Below, in pieces: positions 42,209 to 55,700 of a stretch of 64,000 nt of DNA. Made by a program: the position numbers and the translations under genes. Source of the stretch: Plicaturopsis crispa FD-325 SS-3. Lineage: Eukaryota; Basidiomycota; Agaricomycetes; Amylocorticiales; Amylocorticiaceae. The stretch spans positions 96,176 to 160,175 of the forward strand of contig KN832560.1 of assembly GCA_000827205.1 (NCBI GenBank), read 5' to 3'. Positions within the stretch are counted from its first letter, which is position 1, and each line of letters begins with the position of its first letter. The notes under the pieces are model-generated. The model worked only from the letters and a program-made list of their open reading frames with translations. It was not told the origin of the DNA and made no database searches.

Positions 42209-43721
42209 CTATCGTTTCCGCCGCCGCCGGCTTCCCTTATTGTGAGGCAGACAATCGTGGCAATACCACTTCACGTCTTCTGCCGGCGGTTCCGTCAGGC
42301 CAACGCAGCCCAAGTGGAACTGTCAAGTCATCAGTGAGGCGTAGCGAATCACATTAGCAAAACCCGTCTACTCACCCATTCACGCTCGCAGTCTGCATCA
42401 TCGCATGCGACCATCTGAGGAAAATCAGTCGGACAACATAGTCAGACGCAGCAGCAGCGGACGTACCTCTCCGTATGACGGTTGATGGCAATAACAATAC
42501 GGCCGCTCCTCCTCCGTTGGCAATGATAATTTGACTGACTTGACCGTACGTCTACCGCCGCCCGTAGCCGTGGGTGCTGCTTCATTGTCTGTCTTTTTGT
42601 CCTTCCCTCGTCTGGCTACGCCTTTCCGTCTTCGCCCCGGACCAGATGAAACGTTGCCCGTATCATCCGGGACTACTTCACTGGGGTTTTCTGGTCCGAC
42701 GTTTCCCGACGCGTCATCGACACCAAACGAGGGTGTCGGGCTACGCTCGGCATGGGCTGCACGTACCCATCGAGGCACGACGAGTTCGGGAAGAACAATC
42801 GGAGCGGGCTGCGTTCCAGGTCTTATACCCAGAGAAAGCGATGTTTCCTGCTCGCTGATAGATTGGTCAAGAAGGCGAATATGGCGGTCAATCTGGCCGT
42901 TACTCGTTAGCGGGCAATGATGGTAAGCAGATGGGCGGGCGCTTACAGAGTCGCAGGCTGCCTGGGCCAAATTCACCTTTTCCTCCGAGGCCCGTAGCAC
43001 CTCTTCTGACAGCCAGGCAATATGAGATAGCAACTCCCGAGTTGTTTTAGGAGGCTTTGTTTGACCTGGAGGAATCGACGACGATTTCGAGGTAGATCCG
43101 CCGACTGTTTGGGTGGGTTCCGTATGGTTAACACCAACAGGAGGGCGTTGTGGGGATATAGACATCAAATGGGCGGTAGGCTCTGGAGTTTTGGAACCGC
43201 TATCATCCTTCGCCTCGTTCATAGGGACGTCTGGGACCTCTGTAGAGCTCCCAAGCGCGACCGCACCGTCCAAGTACGATACCAAAGATCGCCGTAGGGC
43301 AATGTATTGTTGTATTGAGGGCAATAAGTCCGAGTTGTGTGCTTAAAGGCGGGGAAGTCAGCATACCACAGTGCTTTGAGAATATGCAATACGCACCTTG
43401 CGCTTGGTCGTCCAGTTCGCGCATGAGTATCAGTTGCCGATGTAGACTCAAAGGCAACTGCTCGATCGCTAGACCCTAGTCAATACGAGAGACCGGCGAA
43501 CGCACAGAGAGCTCGCCTTCAAAGTGCTCCTCCCTGAACGCGTCCCAAATCTCGCGTTCCTTTTCTGAGTTCTCTTTCGCGGTCTCTTCGTTGTCCCCGG
43601 TATCTCCCTCCTTATGGTCAGCATTGCTAGATTGGTTCTCCTCGGGGGCGGGTGTCTGTTCCTCCTCTTCTTGCGCAAAGGCTTCAGACCGTCGTCGTTT
43701 GCGGGACCGTCGAGGAGCCAT
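42209..43721 (-). CDS. ING-family PHD-finger chromatin protein
   Basis: The basic start MAPRRSRKRRRSEAF leads to an acidic segment, then the ING N-terminal helix pair: LPLSLHRQLILMRELDDQAQ and LLPSIQQYIALRRSL...TRELLSHIAWLSEEVLRASEEK. A low-complexity middle with a basic patch (GRRRKGVARRGKDKK) follows. The C-terminal PHD finger reads YCYCHQPSYGEMVACDDADC, EREW, FHLGCVGLTEPP, DVKWYCHDC, a complete Cys4-His-Cys3 with the aromatic residues that hold H3K4me3; it ends KGSRRRRKR, a polybasic tail typical of ING proteins. ING proteins guide histone acetyltransferase or deacetylase complexes. The start chosen is the first ATG in frame; the open frame upstream of it lacks ATG. Confidence 0.9.
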
Positions 43722-44099
43722 ACTGAGTGGATCGCGTCCAAGACGCGTGGTCGTTCTTTCGCTGTACTTTGCACGCGTGGGTCCGTGCGCCTGTCCCGCC
43801 ACTACACTCTGATCTTACCTTCGCTCAACGTTAAACCGGCATGTACTGTCGAGTATCGTATATGTCCCACAATCCCATGTCTGTCCATTGTATTCTCGAA
43901 ACTCCCGGATCAGCTCAAAGGAATGCTTAAATCGCCTGGAAGACTATGATTTTCGGACCTGCAAACGAATGCACACGCCGACGGGCCGTTTGTACCCGAT
44001 TTGCAACTGATCAGTATCGGGGCGAAGTTGTATATCTCTGCCAGTCTACAGTGACCACTCGGGGGACAGGGACCTCACACGTTTATCGCAGGTGGTACC
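43722..44099. other. Divergent promoter region, ING / MLKL-like gene
   Basis: No independent gene is visible. A short upstream exon of the MLKL-like gene could lie here because its predicted start is bare, but none is convincing. Confidence 0.35.
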
Positions 44100-46476
44100 A
44101 TGAACAGGGCGTTAGGATTGTCAGTCACTGCGTTATCGATCGCGGGCTCTTTGAGCCCTGTTCCATGGGTCGGTATAGTTGCCACTGTCGTCCAAGAGAT
44201 CCAAGAGTGCTGCCTCGAAGTGGCCAAATATAAGGTGCGTTACACTCGCATATCCACGCATTTGCACTTCCGACTCAATAGACTCAGCGCAAGGCTCGCC
44301 AACTGTCTGACCGCTGCGCCCTCCTCCTGGGCAATTTAAACGACCAGAGCGCGCGGCTCGATGGCAGCGATCTAAATGAATCAGTAGACCAGCTTTACAC
44401 GTTTGTGTGTCTCATTCACACTCAGTGCCGCATCTTATATGTCCGATTTCGTAGCGCCTTGCTGAGAATCCGTGCTCGTGTGAGGGAGTGGTCGCACTAC
44501 AGCCGTGTAAAATGTTTCAGTGAGTACTGGAGAGTATCGGGGCGCGGGCCACTAATATAACAGCCAAGCTTCAAGTAAAGAACAAAGAGATTGAAGAAGG
44601 GCTGGCACTATCCGAGTCTGAATTGGTAGCTGCCATGAACCTATTTCATGTGAGTGTAGCTAGTATCTCTCGTCTACAGCACGATGACTCTCAGTGCTCT
44701 CCAGATCAACGCGCAGATCACGTTGCACCATTCACACCGTGAATCGACATCCATTCACCGCAGGGACAATGAAGAGACGCGAGAAATGCTGCGCGAGATT
44801 TTGACGAATCAACAAGACTTACGAAATATTGTCGAGCTGCAGCGTGCCGGGGAGCATGCCGCTGAATTAGTCATGGAGGCTGGACAAGAGGTGAGCTCAT
44901 GGCCTGCATCGTCCACTGAGTCATACAATGACATGCCTTGTCAGGAATTGCGCTCTATGCGCCAAGATATACACTACACTCACGGGGCTGGCACGAGGAA
45001 ACTGGTAGCCACCGGAAACCAGCGATCCCCCACGTCCATACCTAAGGATCGACGGTATTCAGAGTATAGGCGTGGGCTGGTGGCCCTGCATAATGCGACG
45101 GGCATTCCTCCGACCGTGAAGATCCTCGACGGTGAGGTACAAAAAGAGGGCGAGATCCCCATCCGAGGCGGGACGTATTCCGACATATGGCTTGGAAAAT
45201 GGCTTGGGGAGGAGCAGGCATGCTCACGGAGCGCCCTATCTTATGAAATTGCCTCGCTAACCACGCAAATGTAGGTCGCCCTCAAGGCACTCCGAAATAT
45301 CAAGGTATCAGATCCCAAAGCCAGCAAGGTCCGTGCTCTCGGCATACTTGCCGAACTGTCATTAACGGTGTGGCGTAGCGTTTTCAGCACGAAATGCGCG
45401 TCTGGGCAAACTTGAACGACCCGCATATCCTCCCCTTCTACGGCATCGCTACGGATCTAGGTGTTCATATTCACATGGTATGTCAAATTGCGCCCCTCCG
45501 CTCGTGAGACATTACAAGCCGTCAGCAGGTCTCGCCCTGGCAAGCCAACGGAAATGTTCTCGAGTGAGTGCAAGCATTCTATAAGTATCCGCTTTTCATG
45601 TATTGGATCCGCGGTTGTAGCTTTGTCAAAAGGCGGCCCAACGATAGTGACCGGATTCATTTGGTAAGTAAGCCAAATGTGGGCAATTGGGGATGTTCTC
45701 AGGCTGATTGAGTGGCCAAGCTCGCTGGTGCAGCACAGGGAATCCAGTACTTGCATTCTCAAGGAATCACGCATGGAAACCGTGAGTTTTGCCCTAATCT
45801 TCTGCCCGCATTTCCCCGTGACGCTGACTTGGAAGCGCTTGCACAGTAAAGTGTGTGAGTAGGGTTCATTGGGCTGCTCGGGCTAAGCTCTTACTGTCGG
45901 TTTAAAAAGGCAAATATCCTCGTGCTGGCTAGTGTAAGTGTCAAGCCTCCCTCTTATGGCCCATGGGGTCGCACAGATTTACTTTTACCGCAGGGCGAAG
46001 CATGTATATGCGACTTTGGTATGTCCAAGGTGATTGAAGACGTGACAGAAAAATCTGCCTCTGCCACATTGACTACATCGGCAGGCTCAGTCCGGCAAGT
46101 TCCTTAACCATGACCTATGCTGCGATCTACACGGTACTTACATATAATTTGCAGCTGGCTTTCCCCAGAGATCATCGAAGGGAGCGTATCGTCTATAACG
46201 ACTCAGGCGGATACGTACTCGTACGCTATGGCGACTCTCGAGCTCCTTACCCTGAGGCGCCCATATTCTCACAGAAAACGAGACGCTGCCGTCATCCGCG
46301 ATGTAGTGATAAATAAGGAGCATCCGCCCCGACCTCCCGCACTGCGTAATGACGCTTTGTGGAAGCTGCTGAAGGAGTGTTGGTCGTTTGACCCAGAGGC
46401 ACGCCCTACGATGGCGACTGTCGCCTCGCGCATGCTCAGTTTTGACGCCGGGGACAACGACACAATCCGTGGTTAA
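44100..46476 (+). CDS. MLKL-NTD-like helical domain fused to TKL (pseudo)kinase domain
   Basis: The N-terminal 150 or so residues are helical: MNRALGLSVTALSIAGSLSP, VGIVATVVQEIQECC, KARQLSDRCALLLGNL, LLRIRARVREW and KNKEIEEGLALSES. This matches the four-helix adaptor found in fungal and plant proteins related to the MLKL N-terminus. A linker (LRNIVELQRAGEHAAELVM, RRGLVALHNATGIPPTVK) joins a kinase domain: GGTYSDIWLGKWLGEEQ (loop), VALKALRNIKV (Lys), HEMRVWANLNDPHILPFYG, QGIQYLHSQGITHGNLKCAN, CICDFGMSKVIEDVTEK, WLSPEIIEG and CWSFDPEARPTM. The HRD triad is HGN, so the catalytic base Asp is Asn, while VALK Lys and DFG are kept. About nine introns; the one at 45664-45720 uses the AAG acceptor, which keeps the frame. 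A family of such proteins is expanded in Agaricomycetes. A signalling or cell-death role is inference from architecture only. Confidence 0.75.
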
Positions 46477-47690
46477 TGTCGTCATTGATCTGATAGCTGG
46501 TACACGGCATCCGCGTCCGTCGTAATACAAGGTTCGGACTCTATGGTATTCTGGCGAGTGCTGTACTTCTTCTGACATATGCTCTCTGCTTAGCCCTATT
46601 GAGGGTATACACGCTCCCGTGTACGTTTGCGGACATACAGTAAGAACCATTTTTGTCAGACGCAGTTAGACGCCTGCAGCTGCTCCACGTACCTGCGAAC
46701 CGATCATGGGAGCCGGGGAACGAGATGATGGCTGGGCGGCTGAACAGACAGGGTCGGACACAAAGCACAGCGATATGTGCTACTAGTTGCGCGAAGTCTG
46801 CTGCTCGCCCACGGCACGGGAATGCGCCGGTAATGATTATCATTGGGCTCTGATTATCAAACTGGTGTACGGAGCTGCAGTAAACTCCAGCGAAAGGTTC
46901 CAATTCGTGCACTGTGCGAAGACAGCTTTTGAGAAGGTGGGGCCAGCATACGTTAGGAAACGAGGTTACCTATACTACCAAAACATAAGCGATATCACCC
47001 GCGCCAATGCTTGACCGCTGAATCTTGTCTACGATTTTCTGACGGTATATGCCTTTGCCTTGCATTTGTCTGCGACGGTTCTCGCTGGACGCTGGGTGAG
47101 GACACGTCGTCAGGGGTCTCGTCCAAGTGTGGGAATTGATGGTCGCGGAATGGAAATTTGATCTCCGCGCCTTTGGTCCTTTTGTAGCGAAATTGACAAA
47201 AAGAGTCCACGACTGTGAGTTTCTGTGCAAAAGTGAGCGCTTTTGGACAGAATCCTGGCCAAGTTTCTCATAAATAGCGTGGGGTGGCTCGCGGACTTTC
47301 GTCGTTTTTCTTTCTCCGCCTCCTTTGTCCTCCGCCTTCAAGCTCAGCCATTTGACGGACTGACTGACTCTGAACTGCGCTCAGCGACGCCCGCAACATC
47401 CGTGAGCGCATCTCCGCGATCCTTGGGTCTGGCAATTACTGATTTTCAGCTGCAGTTCCTCTTCCCTGCTCATCGTCGTGCTCGACGTGCTCGACGTGCG
47501 CGACGTCGGGGGCTCCAACAGCTAGCGCCTCCTGTCAGATTTCGATAAGGTTAATTCGCAACACGTGTACACCGGCCAATATACTGAGAAGAAGAGTCCA
47601 GGAACCTGCACGTCGTCCTTGTGTTCCACTCACACCTCTAAGCGTTTCAGCTCCCAGCACGCCTGTTGCTGCTTGGACTTCGCCAATACC
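46477..47690. other. Intergenic region with one unexplained minus-strand frame
   Basis: No recognisable gene. On the minus strand from about 47222 to 46995 a frame reads VVDSFCQFRYKRTKGAEIK and FPFRDHQFPHLDETPDDV, which looks protein-like, but there is no good start, flanking exons or family match. The part from 47280 on is probably the promoter and 5' UTR of the zinc-cluster gene, with repeated cgtgctcgacgtgc phrases at 47476-47505. Confidence 0.35.
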
Positions 47691-48661
47691 ATGTCTACGC
47701 CGGAGAAATCACCCGATGGCGATGAGCCACACGATACACAGTCGAACAACTCCTCCGTTCAGCCCTCGATGACCATCCACCCCATCTCGTATTCGGGCAT
47801 GCCCATGCACATGTTCCCGTACCACACGGTGTCGAGTCCCAATTCGCACTCCCTGCACTCCAAGCGGCGTCAGGTCAAGAACGCGTGCACTAATTGTCAA
47901 AAAGCTTGCAAGAAGTGCGACGATGCGCGTCCCTGCCTGCGCTGCGTCAAGTACGGCTTTAGGGAGGACTGCCATGACTCGCATAGAAAAGAGAGGAAGA
48001 AAGGCATTAAACGGGGACCTTACAAGAAGCGCGATGGCAAAGGTGAGTTTACCGTACCACCATTCGTTGATTCATTTCTTTGCCCGCATACGTTGTGTCT
48101 GATCGTTATCGAGATCGCGCAGGCAGCAGCGTCGACGAACAAGACGCACCCGCACAGACGGGTATGCCAATGCCCCCAAACGGCGGCGTGCCACCCAGCG
48201 CGTCGCCACCGATGGCACCCTACATGGGCGCCATGCCGGGATACCCTGGCTTTTACAGCCAGTACCCGCCTCCTCAGGGTGGACCGGGTCCCAGACCTGG
48301 AGAGGGTGGGCCCCCCTTCTTCCCTCACTACTACATCCCCGTGCCGCACGCCCCGCAGCAACAACCCCCGCAGGAAAACGGCGATGGCCAAGGATATCCG
48401 CCACCCCACGCGCAATTCTACCCCGCCACATTCCTTGCGCCGTACCCGCAGCCGTACCCCCCACCATACATGATGCCCCACCCGGGCGCGCGACAGGACG
48501 GACCAGTACCGATGCAAAGCCCGCATTACGCGCCGTATCCGCCGATGTACTCCAAGGCCCCCTCCGCGGATGACGGTCACGATAACTCGGGACCGGGCGG
48601 TGCCGGGCCAAGCGCGCGAGGTGGCGAGGGTCACGACGGGGGCGATGGGAAAACGGTGTGA
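47691..48661 (+). CDS. Zn2Cys6 zinc-cluster transcription factor
   Basis: Two exons (47691-48042, 48123-48661) give 296 residues. A Ser/His/Met-rich start leads to the binuclear zinc cluster ACTNCQKACKKCDDARPCL followed by RCVKYGFREDC; the six Cys follow C-x2-C-x6-C-x5-C-x2-C-x7-C spacing. A basic patch follows, RKERKKGIKRGPYKKRDGK, which could be part of DNA recognition and nuclear import. The second exon is almost wholly Pro/Tyr/Gly/Met-rich (PGYPGFYSQYPPPQGGPGP) and may be a transactivation region. It lacks the PAS or fungal-specific 'middle homology' domain of larger family members. Clusters of the ERT1/AcuK gluconeogenesis-regulator kind share the DDxRPCxRC arrangement, but I do not assign targets. 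Confidence 0.85.
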
Positions 48662-49723: not shown

Positions 49724-52700
49724 ATGTCTGCCCCAAGTACCCCCTACGCTGGCCCTGCCGCCCACGACAAAGCTTTCAAGAAGAGAGAGAGGCCGCCAGC
49801 CCTCGACATCTACGACGAACTTTCCGCGTCAGAGCCAGAGCACCGCTACGAGCACCGTGACGACCATAACACGCATCAGGTACTTATATTGAAGTTGGAC
49901 TTCTACTGCCATGATCATCCACTTACACGCGCAGCAGCCTCAGCTTCACGTCCAGCAAGCATCTGAATCTACCCTGGAGTTGGAAACCGGCGTGTCGCGC
50001 TCTACGTCCGCCACATCGACATTGGATCCGTACTACTTTGGATTGAGGTCTCCGTCAGATTCTCCAGTGCCACCACTCCCAGATCACAACCACCTCAGTA
50101 CGACTCCCGAGACCCGTCCTCTAAACGAGCCAGTTACGCCTGTCAAGGACCCTGCCAACATTGACAGACGCGGTTTGGTTGGGGTTGGGGAGCTTACCAC
50201 TCCTCGATGGACGCGCGCGGAGAGAGATGCTCGGGAACACCCAAGGGATCAGGAACGTGAAAAGGACAACTCAGATCTTCCTCCTGTACCAGATGTAGAC
50301 GAGGACGATCCACCGGACAGTCCATGGACTATTGAAGCCATCGATGGCGAGTCCGATGAGAGGGAGGAGGTATGTCACACTTCAGTCTTTTCGTTTCTTC
50401 CTACACTAATTCAACTCGGTTTTTTTAGGAACCTGCTGAGGTACCTTCTTTTCCGCGCACCATTCGCCCACGCCCGTCTTTAGGAGAGGAGAGTGGAGGA
50501 GAGGAAATTCTATATCCTCGCAAAGCGGACGCGTTGGAATCCGTTCGCTCGAGACCTTCTGGAAACGTCGCTGATCTACCTCACCCCGTTCCCGCGTCAC
50601 CCGTACCGACGACATCCCCACCGACATCGTTCGCCACACCACTTCGCAAGGCGAAAAAGCGGACGTCAGAGGAGTTTGAACTGGACAATACCGGGGCACT
50701 CGTCACCAAGCGCCATGCTTCATCGTCTACTCCCAAAGACAAAGCGAAAGAGGAGAAGGCTTCTGCTCGCAAGCATCGCAGCCTGGGCGTCGGTATGCCT
50801 TCTACCTCGCGCGAGAAAGGGAAAGAACGCCGACGCGACAGTGTAGGGCTGGGAACCAGCGTCAAAATATCGACTACGAAACCCGAAAAGCATACGAGAC
50901 AGACATCCACTAGCTCGTCGTCGGGTATGAGCGATGCCCACCATTCACGACGTGTGCACACCACGGACTTCTCACATCTCCCCCCATCGCCATCCACCTC
51001 CTCGATCAAGCAGTTTCTGCGCCATGCTGGGAGCGCAAATAGCTCTACCAATCCACCTTTGCGCCCTGCATCACAGGAGCACCATTCTTCCCCCAATGTC
51101 GCCCACTCGTTGTTGCGCGGTACACAAGAAGGGTGGTCTGGTATGGATGATGACGCGACAGCGGAGGCCCTACGGAAACTTGATGGACTCGGTGGAAAAA
51201 CGGCTCGCTCACGGGCTAGTGTGGGCAGCCTAGTAGGTCGGCGGTCAAGTTCCAGCCGCCCGGGCACACCGTCCAGTAAATCCGGGACACAGTGGGAAGG
51301 AGTCGGCGGCGAACACGCCAAAGTCTCCCGCCGCACCAGCGTCCGCGACAGTGTGATAAGCCATAAGGATAGCGACAGCGACCCCGCGCACCGCCAGGTC
51401 GTCGGTCTCGGTCTAACTCATGTTGAATCGATTCTCGATACCAAGGACCCTGGCGGTAGTGCAATCGGTAGCAGCGACGACCAAGGATTCAGTTCCACAC
51501 AAGACAGGACTCCCAAGAAATCGGCCACGTCGGGTGTTCGCACGAGTTTCTCCGCCAAACGTGGGTCAGCTTCTTCGACTACGTACACGAGCACGAGCAC
51601 GCCTACCACCAGTTCTCGTGATTCAGCGTCGCTGTCGGCGGCTACGAGTGCGACGTCTGTCTCTGGCCGCCATTCCATTGGCAAGGCGGGAAGGAATAGC
51701 GCTGGAAGTGACGTCTCTAGCATCATGTCCGGCGAACCGACTTCAAAAGACCGTAACTCTTTGCTGGCTGCCGCCGCCAATGACACGCATGACGATGGCT
51801 TGGTACCTCCCGTGCCTCCACTTCCGAAGGACCTGACGGGCTACAAATCGCCACCAACGTCCGCGACAAACCTGACGTTTCCTAGCATGGGTGCTGGTGA
51901 CGATACGGATAACCTGGACCATGAAGAGAGCGATATGGACCGCACAATTTCGCTCGAAGTCCCGCCGTTTGTAAGTCCTTCTTTCAACTCCACCTCCCCC
52001 CAGGCGCATGAAGTCGGCTACGCGCAGAGCCAGTATCAGGCGGCTAGCTATGGTTCTGCGCCGGAATCTATCCCCGTGGTTGTGAAGACGCCTTCGAAGA
52101 AATGGAGTTTCTCTAACGCTTTGAATATTAAGCTTTCGAGTTCCCCGTCCTCCGGGTCGTCCAAGGAATCGCCGGGCTCGAAGTCATCAAACTTCGCTCT
52201 GAGTCCCCGATCGTCAACTTTCAGCCACCATTTGCGGAAAATTGACTCCAAGGAGAAAGTCACGTCTCCCGCAAGTGCGAAGAGCGTCTGGTCACCTCAA
52301 TCAGAGGCCATGACATCCGCTGCATCCCTAGCGTCCTTGTCCTCGGCTGGGTCTACGCGGGTACCGAAGTCCCCAGGAGTTCAATCTCCGCGGACGCCTG
52401 ACCGAGGCGTACCTAGTCGACCCAGCAGTCATTCCAGTGCAAGCACCACGCACACGTCGGGATTGACTGCTCACAATGCCCCGCTCAGCCCATCCTCGTC
52501 TTCGCGACGTGACCAATCTTCCAAGCGCCTCACGCCTTCATCGATCCCCTTCTTCCGCCGATCGTCATCGCAGTCTATGCAGGTTCCTCCTTTACCTTCG
52601 TCATCGCCGCCTCCTTCGTCAGGGTACACGACGTCGCAATCACAGTCACGATCTAGAGCCAGTCCTAATGACTATAGTATGTCAACGCTATCGACGCCGT

Positions 52701-55700
52701 CGACTCCAGGCACTGCGCACAAGAAGTCATCTGTTCTAAGCTTGGGCCTCCCCTCGCTCTTAAAGGGGTCCAGTTCCCGGCGGAGTCTACATGGAGATCG
52801 AAGCGACTCAAAGGAGGCAAAGGAGACACAGCGTGCCGTGCGTGATGCCGAGAAGGAGAAGGAGAAACGCGAGAAGGTCGAGAAAGAGCGGCAGAAGAAA
52901 GAGGACAAAGATCGTAGTGAGAGCAGGATCTCAGTGCTTATGGGTCGGAGGCGGGGCAAGGTACGGGATACTTTGTCTTCAGGGCGTGCAGTGGCTCATA
53001 TGTCGTTGTTGCAGACCATGTCCTCCACGGATCGGAAGATGAAGCCCGTGGAAGACACTGAGTTACCTCCCCTGCATATGTCGGGTATCCCTCCGGCCAC
53101 TCAGCAACGTGTTGCAAGACTGAAGTCGACGACGTCACCGTCGTCGTCGACCTCGTCGATCAGCCAACACACGACCCCTCGGACCCCCTCCACGTCGCGT
53201 ATCACTTCGCAAACCGCCAGCTCAATGCAGAAGGTGTCCGACTCCTCGCTGCGTAGTCGGAATCAGCTTCCTACTATCGCTGGTTCTCCCTCGGTGGGTA
53301 CAAATATCTCACAGGCTTCCAAGGAGCCGAGGGAGCCTCCGCCGTCGACCCTGATGAATTCAGTTTCGGGTACTGTCAAAGAGACACCGACGAAAATACC
53401 GCGCATATCAAGCCGGACTTCGTCGACTGCTTCTCCTGCCTTCAAGAATTCAACATCTGTTCGCCGGACCAGTACCAATACTACGACGAATGCAGCGCAG
53501 TCTAACAATTCGTCGCCGGCCGCCTCGACTAATGAATTCGGTGTTCTGGACAACGTAGAGCCGCCTTCATCGAAGCCGACGCCTGCAAGCACACAACGCC
53601 ACTCCATTCGGTCTTCCCCGTCGACGACATCAAGAGTACCTCGGCAAGTCTCGGCCCCGACTTCCACCACCAACGCGACGCCCCGCAAATCCAACCGCGA
53701 TTCACTTTCGTTCAGCGGTCTTCGCAAGGCGTCTACCAGCTCGGTCGCTACATCGTCGTCGGTGGCACCAAGCGAATCTCAGAGCCATCCATTCTCGGCT
53801 CTGTCACCTTCAAAAGGCTTGAAGCTGCTTAGTCCAAAGATGTCGCTCCCTGCCCCTCGAAGTTCTCATTCGAGCTCGAGGCAAAGCGTCCCACAAAGTG
53901 CAGGTACCCCTTCCTCGAGCCGGCAGTCCTTATCTACGCCTTCTCCCGCACCCAGCTCTGTCGACGAAGAAGAACTCCTGGGTGATGAGGAAATGCTTCA
54001 TTACATCCGGCGGCAACAAGCAAAAAAGATGGCCAATGGTGCAACACAAAGCGAATTGGATGAGCTGTTGCGATTCCCGGAACCTCAACCTCCGGGCATT
54101 CCATTATCGCCGGAAGGTTTGTCTTTAGCACTTTTCGAACGCAGATGCGTCGCTAACTGTTTCTCTTACGCAGCGCTTCTCAAGGGCAGTCAGTCGAAGC
54201 ATCTCTCCGAGTACGAGCGCAAGGAGATCCTCGACTATCCCAACGTTTACTACATTGGCGCCGGAAGTCAGAAGAAACCTGCCACGCCTGATCACTCTAC
54301 TAATAATTATGGGTATGATGATGAACGCGGTGACTACCTCGTAGTCAACCACGATCACCTGGCGTACCGCTACGAAATCATCGATACGCTGGGCAAAGGT
54401 TCTTTCGGACAGGTTCTACACTGTCGAGATCATTGCACTGGGGAGTCTGTTGCAGTCAAAATCATCCGGAACAAGAAACGGTTTCACCACCAGGCGATGA
54501 TTGAAATCAAGATTCTTGATAACCTCCTCAAATGGGCAAGTGGTTTTACATTTTTTCTCCGCTACGTTACTGATCAGTATATCCCTCTCCCTCAGGACGA
54601 GAAAGAGGAGCACCATGTCATTAAGATGACAGAGCACTTCTATTTCCGCAACCACTTGTGTATCGCTATGGAGCTGCTTAGCATCAACCTCTACGAGCTC
54701 ATCAAGGCTAACGGCTTTGTTGGCTTTACGACGACCCTCATTCGGCGATTCACGAGTCAAATGCTCATGTCCCTAATATTGATGAGGAAGCATCGGATCG
54801 TACATTGTGATTTGAAGCCAGAGGTCGGTCGTATCTTCCCGTTGAGCTTCCCTTTTTCTTACTTGTATCCAGAACGTCCTTCTGCGGCATCCTGCGAAGA
54901 GTGCTATCAAAGTCATCGACTTTGGAAGTAGTTGCCTGGAGACGGAGAAAGGTAAGCCCTCCATGTGAACCTTTACCTGTAGCCGTGACCGACTGGCATT
55001 GCAGTCTATACATATATCCAGAGTCGATTCTATCGCTCGCCCGAAGTCATCCTTGGCATGAACTACCACATGGCCATCGACATGTGGAGTTTGGGCTGCA
55101 TTCTTGCTGAGCTTTACACGGGCTACCCAATATTCCCTGGCGAGAACGAGCAGGAGCAATTGTCATGCATCATGGAGGTTCTCGGCATTCCTGATAAAGA
55201 CTTCATAAACCGCAGTACCCGCAAGCGCATCTTCTTCGGTAAGTGCTACCGCTAGCAGCATTTGTGGACTTGGAACTCAATATTGCTTAGACAACAATGG
55301 GACGCCTCGCCCAGTGGTCAACTCGAAAGGCAGGCGCAGACGTCCCGGCACGAAAAACCTCGCGCAAGTGCTACGGAGTAATGACGAGGACTTCATTGAC
55401 TTCATAGCCAAGTGCTTGATCTGGGACCCTGATCGACGGATTAAGCCACAGCAGGCAATCGTGCATCCCTTCGTTACTGGTGGCCGACGCGTCAAGGCGA
55501 CTAACCCTTCGCCTGCGAAGGGATTCCTGTCTTCGGGATCGAGCAGTCGCCATAAAACCGCAGAGACCCCCAAGAAGTCTCAAATCGGTGCACCCACTCC
55601 TTTGACCTCGCGAACATCCCGGACGACAGGCACCGTCCCTACCACCCCGGGCAATTCGTCCACCCACGCAAGTACCCTCGGATCGTCGAGGTCGTACAGA

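Follow-up and report, generated by a model that had tools for sequence, protein, structure and literature searches.

An MLKL-like helical domain joined to a kinase domain with Asn at the catalytic Asp position in Plicaturopsis crispa, and four related genes in the same genome

The Gene and Its Exon Model

The stretch of DNA considered here (the window, 64,000 nucleotides of the mushroom Plicaturopsis crispa) contains a gene for a predicted protein of 534 amino acids, in which a helical N-terminal domain is followed by a linker and a kinase domain. The gene sits on contig C7 of a 33.2 Mb, 49-contig genome. Its features, in window positions, are the following.

44100..46476, + strand: whole gene, 15 exons, 534 aa, three splice choices matched to the related gene on contig C8 (paralogue B)
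44100-44234, 44288-44400, 44455-44519, 44576-44649, 44705-44890, + strand: exons 1-5
44945-45217, 45275-45328, 45379-45477, 45529-45563, 45621-45667, + strand: exons 6-10
45713-45781, 45847-45854, 45910-45933, 45994-46094, 46155-46476, + strand: exons 11-15
44100..44707, + strand: N-terminal helical domain, aa 1-130, a relative of the MLKL four-helix bundle as judged from sequence, with the MLKL_N match at aa 27-112
44708..45166, + strand: linker, aa 131-265
45167..46431, + strand: kinase domain, aa 266-520, PF07714 (PK_Tyr_Ser-Thr), E=6.1e-41
45284..45286, + strand: beta-3 Lys of VALK, aa 286, kept
45391..45393, + strand: alpha-C Glu, aa 305, kept
45772..45780, + strand: HGN, aa 381-383, with Asn for the catalytic Asp, codons CAT GGA AAC
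45847..45854, + strand: micro-exon of 8 bases in the catalytic loop, completing the codons for LKC after HGN
46012..46020, + strand: DFG, aa 401-403, kept, with a Ser/Thr-rich activation segment next

The initial reading ran from the ATG at 44100 to 46476 in 14 exons and 558 amino acids with no stop (11 GT-AG and two GC-AG introns). The coordinates, strand, start and stop proposed in an earlier, sequence-only reading of this DNA are right. Three splice changes were then picked so that the window protein aligns without gaps with paralogue B. The acceptor of intron 1 was moved, so that the first intron is now 44235-44287; an extra intron, 44401-44454, was placed at the position and phase of an intron of paralogue B in what had been open frame inside exon 2; and the third intron received a new acceptor, giving 44520-44575. 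The final model has 14 introns, each of 45-65 bases, with GC-AG borders in two of them. The GC-AG introns are 45218-45274 and 46095-46154. The target of the fitting was paralogue B and not MLKL; some bias is possible, because the look of MLKL-like domains was known to the analyst beforehand. The gene is intact as read, on an exon model predicted from the DNA sequence alone.

The N-Terminal Helical Domain

The N-domain of the window protein, searched alone, has MLKL_N as its first Pfam family with E=4.2e-4 and 20.3 bits, and the whole protein matches the same family with 17.2 bits (E=0.0038); both scores are below the Pfam curated cut-off for MLKL_N of 27 bits. This match hinges on the splice choices, as it is present with the changed exons only, and the N-domain with unchanged exons has no Pfam match at E<=1. 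Paralogues B and E provide support that is separate from the splice choices made in the window gene. In the Pfam scans MLKL_N also ranks first for the N-domains of paralogue E (E=2.2e-6; at 27.7 bits it exceeds the cut-off), paralogue B (E=5.1e-6) and paralogue D (E=0.071), and the Pfam scan of paralogue C has no MLKL_N match.

Profile searches of the PDB point in the same direction. With a profile of all five N-domains, human and mouse MLKL chains are the top seven of the 17 matches, the best with E=3.6e-5; with a profile of three N-domains, MLKL chains occupy ranks 1-6 and 8 of 14 (best E=4.6e-4). A control profile made from the five reversed sequences has nine matches, none of them MLKL, with a best E of 0.31. 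Taken as a five-member group, the N-domains are of the MLKL bundle type at the level of sequence. The sequence-only reading had described a helical N-domain followed by a pseudokinase, in the order found in MLKL, and these Pfam and PDB searches support it. The highest mean hydropathy of any 19-residue stretch in the N-domain is 1.55, and therefore the domain has no clear transmembrane segment. The linker contains the stretch YRRGLVALHNATGIPPTV; by eye, paralogue B has a similar one.

The Kinase Domain and Its Active Site

The kinase half was read earlier as a TKL-type kinase with HGN in the catalytic loop and with the VALK Lys, the alpha-C Glu and DFG in place, and all of these are seen in the present reading. 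The catalytic loop is HGNLKCAN. All HGN codons lie in one exon, and HGN is therefore independent of splicing. Four active-site features were checked, and HGN is the only altered one. Loss of the VAIK Lys, the HRD Asp or the DFG Asp marks a pseudokinase, and the window protein would be one through the HRD Asp alone; its kinase domain has probably lost catalysis. From DFG onward the protein reads DFGMSKVIEDVTEKSASATLTTSAGSVRWLSPE, in which Ser and Thr are abundant.

When the whole protein was searched against the PDB, the best 60 of 2507 matches were ordinary kinases, e.g., Fgr, Src and TNNI3K. MLKL is absent from these best 60, which are mostly Src constructs, and therefore the kinase half is not specially MLKL-like. 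The top match, 9p9u ('EGFR', E=3.3e-44), was set aside, as it adds up two ordinary kinase matches within one chain.

A Five-Gene Family

Five genes in the genome encode an N-domain of this type plus a kinase, and the N-domain precedes the kinase in all of them.

44100..46476 of the window, + strand: window gene, VALK, HGN, DFG
C8:1655-1658 kb: paralogue B, VALR (Lys to Arg), HGD, DFG
C6:375-378 kb: paralogue C (L101 and L029), VALK, HGA, DFY
C21:193-195 kb: paralogue D, VALK, HGD, DFG (canonical)
C1:2058-2060 kb: paralogue E, VAIK, HGE, DFG

The catalytic Asp is missing in three of the five and the beta-3 Lys in a fourth. The routes of catalytic loss in the family include replacement of the Asp by Asn, Ala or Glu, of the Lys by Arg, and of DFG by DFY. 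The window gene is a member of a small in-genome family whose kinase halves are degraded in varied ways. The kinase half of paralogue C is strongly degraded (HGA, DFY) and its N-domain is still recognizable.

A kinase tree made from query-anchored fragments leaves the five N-domain kinases ununited. Paralogues B and C are sisters in it with a support of 0.986, and this is the only well-supported grouping among the five genes. Relatives of the window gene were absent from the viral and prokaryote contig collections.

Additional N-domains occur elsewhere in the genome. Those at C9:1206383-1206652 (L104) and C9:1305011-1305277 resemble the N-domain of paralogue D. The 2 kb read at the first of these sites contains no kinase, and it is therefore probably a stand-alone MLKL-like domain. 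A further weak match lies at C18:556691 (E=0.063). The match at C5:363531 (E=0.022) was rejected as an N-domain; by eye it is an SMC-like coiled coil. Genome searches with PF22215 and PF17111 had zero matches; these searches read exon by exon, and therefore the null result is no evidence of absence.

Catalytic Loops of Other Kinases in the Genome

We took 64 distinct kinase loci besides the window gene, from a genome with 143 kinase matches. Four of the loci are paralogues B, C, D and E. Of the remaining 60, 51 gave a readable catalytic loop; the nine left out are L027, L038, L052, L060, L073, L076, L077, L078 and L081, two of which (L038 and L052) have HRD in the tree fragments. The catalytic Asp is kept in 50 of the 51, the exception being L053. 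This locus (C8:740 kb) has HRH for HRD in an otherwise normal loop, HIKGANVLVN.

HGN is present in none of these 51 loci and in none of the four paralogues. Among the kinases read here it is confined to the window gene, and an HGN family is not demonstrated. The sequence-only reading had described HGN as recurring in related Agaricomycete proteins, as a sign of a conserved pseudokinase family; the recurrence does not hold within this genome, and what stands of that reading is the MLKL-like N-domain followed by a TKL-type kinase domain without the catalytic Asp.

Loss of the Asp is more frequent in the N-domain kinases (three of five) than in the other loci (one of 51), with a Fisher p of 0.0014, or 0.012 with the window gene omitted. 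Against 12 other mushroom-type HGD/HAD kinases (L020, L030-L034, L043, L048, L049, L056, L061 and L071) the values are 0.015 and, with the window gene omitted, 0.05. All of these values are a guide only, because the loci share ancestry and their sampling is uneven. The presence of an N-domain at the 51 loci was judged within flanks of at most 1.5 kb. Three of the loci, L030, L033 and L071, have DYG, DYG and DYD for DFG, and an N-domain was not seen in the flanks examined; active-site decay is therefore not confined to the N-domain kinases.

Neighborhood of the Gene

Ten open frames across the window were scanned with Pfam. The three adjoining frames, 42425-43342 (-), 43476-43814 (-) and 47526-48473 (+), have zero Pfam matches. 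By eye, the first of them contains CYCHQPSYGE, which we take to be PHD-like, and the last a motif that is presumably of the Zn2Cys6 kind. The outer seven frames are helicases (two DEAD, one of them beside RecQ parts), a protein kinase, an AAA ATPase, a mitochondrial dehydrogenase kinase and a V-ATPase subunit. The protein kinase is an ordinary one about 4 kb downstream (50429-54931), in a large protein with a Pkinase match of E=9.3e-15, and beyond this proximity no link to the window gene was found. Read in the open frame, the loop of this kinase is HCDLKPE.

A physically linked NLR is unlikely, as none of the 21 NACHT matches in the genome is on contig C7 and the one NB-ARC match there (of 14 in the genome) is weak (E=0.051, below the cut-off) and about 780 kb away. 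A convincing N-domain was found at none of the 17 NACHT loci examined out of the 21 NACHT matches. In an unspliced reading, five NACHT proteins (L083, L084, L096, L098 and L099, on C14, C22 and C6) have hydrophobic, membrane-segment-like stretches before the NACHT domain.

Possible Function

By analogy with MLKL, the likeliest reading, which we would put at about even chances, is that the window protein is a switch in which a pseudokinase serves as the latch on a membrane-acting or oligomerizing bundle. The pseudokinase would keep the helical bundle inactive. Release may come from a separate active kinase that phosphorylates the Ser/Thr-rich activation segment, TEKSASATLTTSAGS, or from the binding of ATP or a partner. 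The freed bundle would then oligomerize and act at a membrane, and could thereby kill a hyphal compartment when self/non-self or pathogen responses are triggered. Paralogue D, which has canonical catalytic residues and a like architecture, is a speculative candidate for the activator. The switch reading is favored by the MLKL_N and PDB profile results, by a kinase domain that is intact apart from HGN and by the excess of catalytic loss among the N-domain kinases. Against it count the sub-cut-off MLKL_N score of the window protein and its dependence on the splice choices, the absence of an MLKL_N match in paralogue C, the lack of a clear transmembrane segment, the retained DFG Asp, the active-site decay in other kinases, the absence of a linked NLR and the kinase tree. 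An extension of this proposal, that the five MLKL-like fusions form a self-contained necroptosis-like circuit, with one of them as the active kinase and several others as pseudokinase executioners, parallel to RIPK3-MLKL, seems to us unlikely.

Other explanations have to be weighed against the MLKL-like switch. The protein may be a signaling pseudokinase or scaffold, whose N-domain oligomerizes or docks and whose pseudokinase allosterically steers an active TKL kinase, e.g., a paralogue, with no membrane killing. We regard this as possible, if on the doubtful side. Nucleotide binding is plausible from the kept Lys, Glu and DFG, JAK JH2-type pseudokinases are described as allosteric regulators (PMC10211241), and the authors who defined the BaMLKL domains state that the common ancestry of the Goodbye-like and BaMLKL bundles leaves function unsettled (PMC9815663). 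However, the order of bundle and then pseudokinase is that of MLKL, and the HeLo/HELL relatives studied so far are membrane-targeting according to a 2025 review (PMC12881547).

That the protein is a weakly or atypically active kinase, with Asn substituting for Asp and the remaining site intact, is decidedly unlikely, even with the intact Lys, Glu and DFG in its favor. HER3 and the JAK JH2 domains also have Asn at the position of the catalytic Asp, but a change of Asp to Asn generally abolishes catalysis, and paralogue C, with a like architecture, is degraded further (HGA, DFY). The activity of JH2 itself is described as low or impaired (PMC10211241). The same paralogue C, which appears degenerate, would be in line with the view that the window gene is a decaying copy and that HGN is an early step in its loss; we find this highly improbable, as the 15 exons form a single uninterrupted frame with recognizable splice sites and three of the four active-site features checked are unaltered.

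If the MLKL-like switch is correct, mushrooms would have MLKL-type executioners controlled by a pseudokinase. One could then ask if animals and fungi inherited the bundle-plus-pseudokinase switch from a common ancestor or if it was put together more than once. The genome has both intact and degraded kinase halves in five located genes, and this question is therefore testable.

Comparison with Known Systems

Mammalian MLKL shares with the window protein a helical N-domain, similar by profile, and a kinase domain that lacks the catalytic Asp. It differs in that the kinase half of the window protein is not specially close to that of MLKL (best 60 of 2507 PDB matches) and in the 26 residues that precede the MLKL_N match. 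Mouse MLKL has lost the DFG Asp as well (PMC10211241), whereas the window protein has kept DFG. According to the same source, TKL pseudokinases are most numerous in plants and fungi.

The nearest basidiomycete counterparts are the BaMLKL domains, MLKL-like N-domains described in 2022 both at the N-termini of NLRs and as stand-alone domains (PMC9815663). Like the N-domain studied here, they are related to the MLKL N-terminal domain. In BaMLKL the first MLKL helix is preceded by an N-terminal extension, with an additional helix, hG, ahead of the bundle (PMC9815663); in the window protein 26 residues precede the MLKL_N match and may correspond to this extension. However, the window domain is fused to a kinase; this comparison is with BaMLKL as described. 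A 2023 review describes the relation between HeLo and 4HB domains (PMC10197012).

MLKL-related proteins have been reported in other fungi and in plants. Some proteins of the Glomeromycotina have been placed in the MLKL channel family (PMC8778642); unlike the window protein, they have Sel1 repeats, and in that account the Glomeromycotina are the only early-diverging fungi to have such MLKL-related proteins. Plant MLKLs, e.g., Pm13, have an MLKL N-terminal domain and then a kinase domain, as here, but this domain is termed a serine/threonine kinase (PMC10951266). The kinase half of the window protein can also be compared, by description, with the FslK kinases, the Agaricomycete expansion of tyrosine-kinase-related kinases described in 2014 (PMC3937382). 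They resemble it as expanded tyrosine-kinase-related mushroom kinases and are a possible source of its kinase domain; they differ in that they are described as likely active and mostly lack extra domains, which are present in just 16 of 241.

Our search of the literature, made outside most subscription journals, found no published description of HGN-type MLKL-like fungal fusions. Nevertheless, one sentence of the 2025 review states that some fungal HELL domains occur in proteins with a kinase or pseudokinase domain, like MLKL (PMC12881547). The architecture in that sentence, which gives no sequences, catalytic residues or species, is the one found here, and the combination of a bundle with a kinase or pseudokinase is thus already known in outline from fungi.
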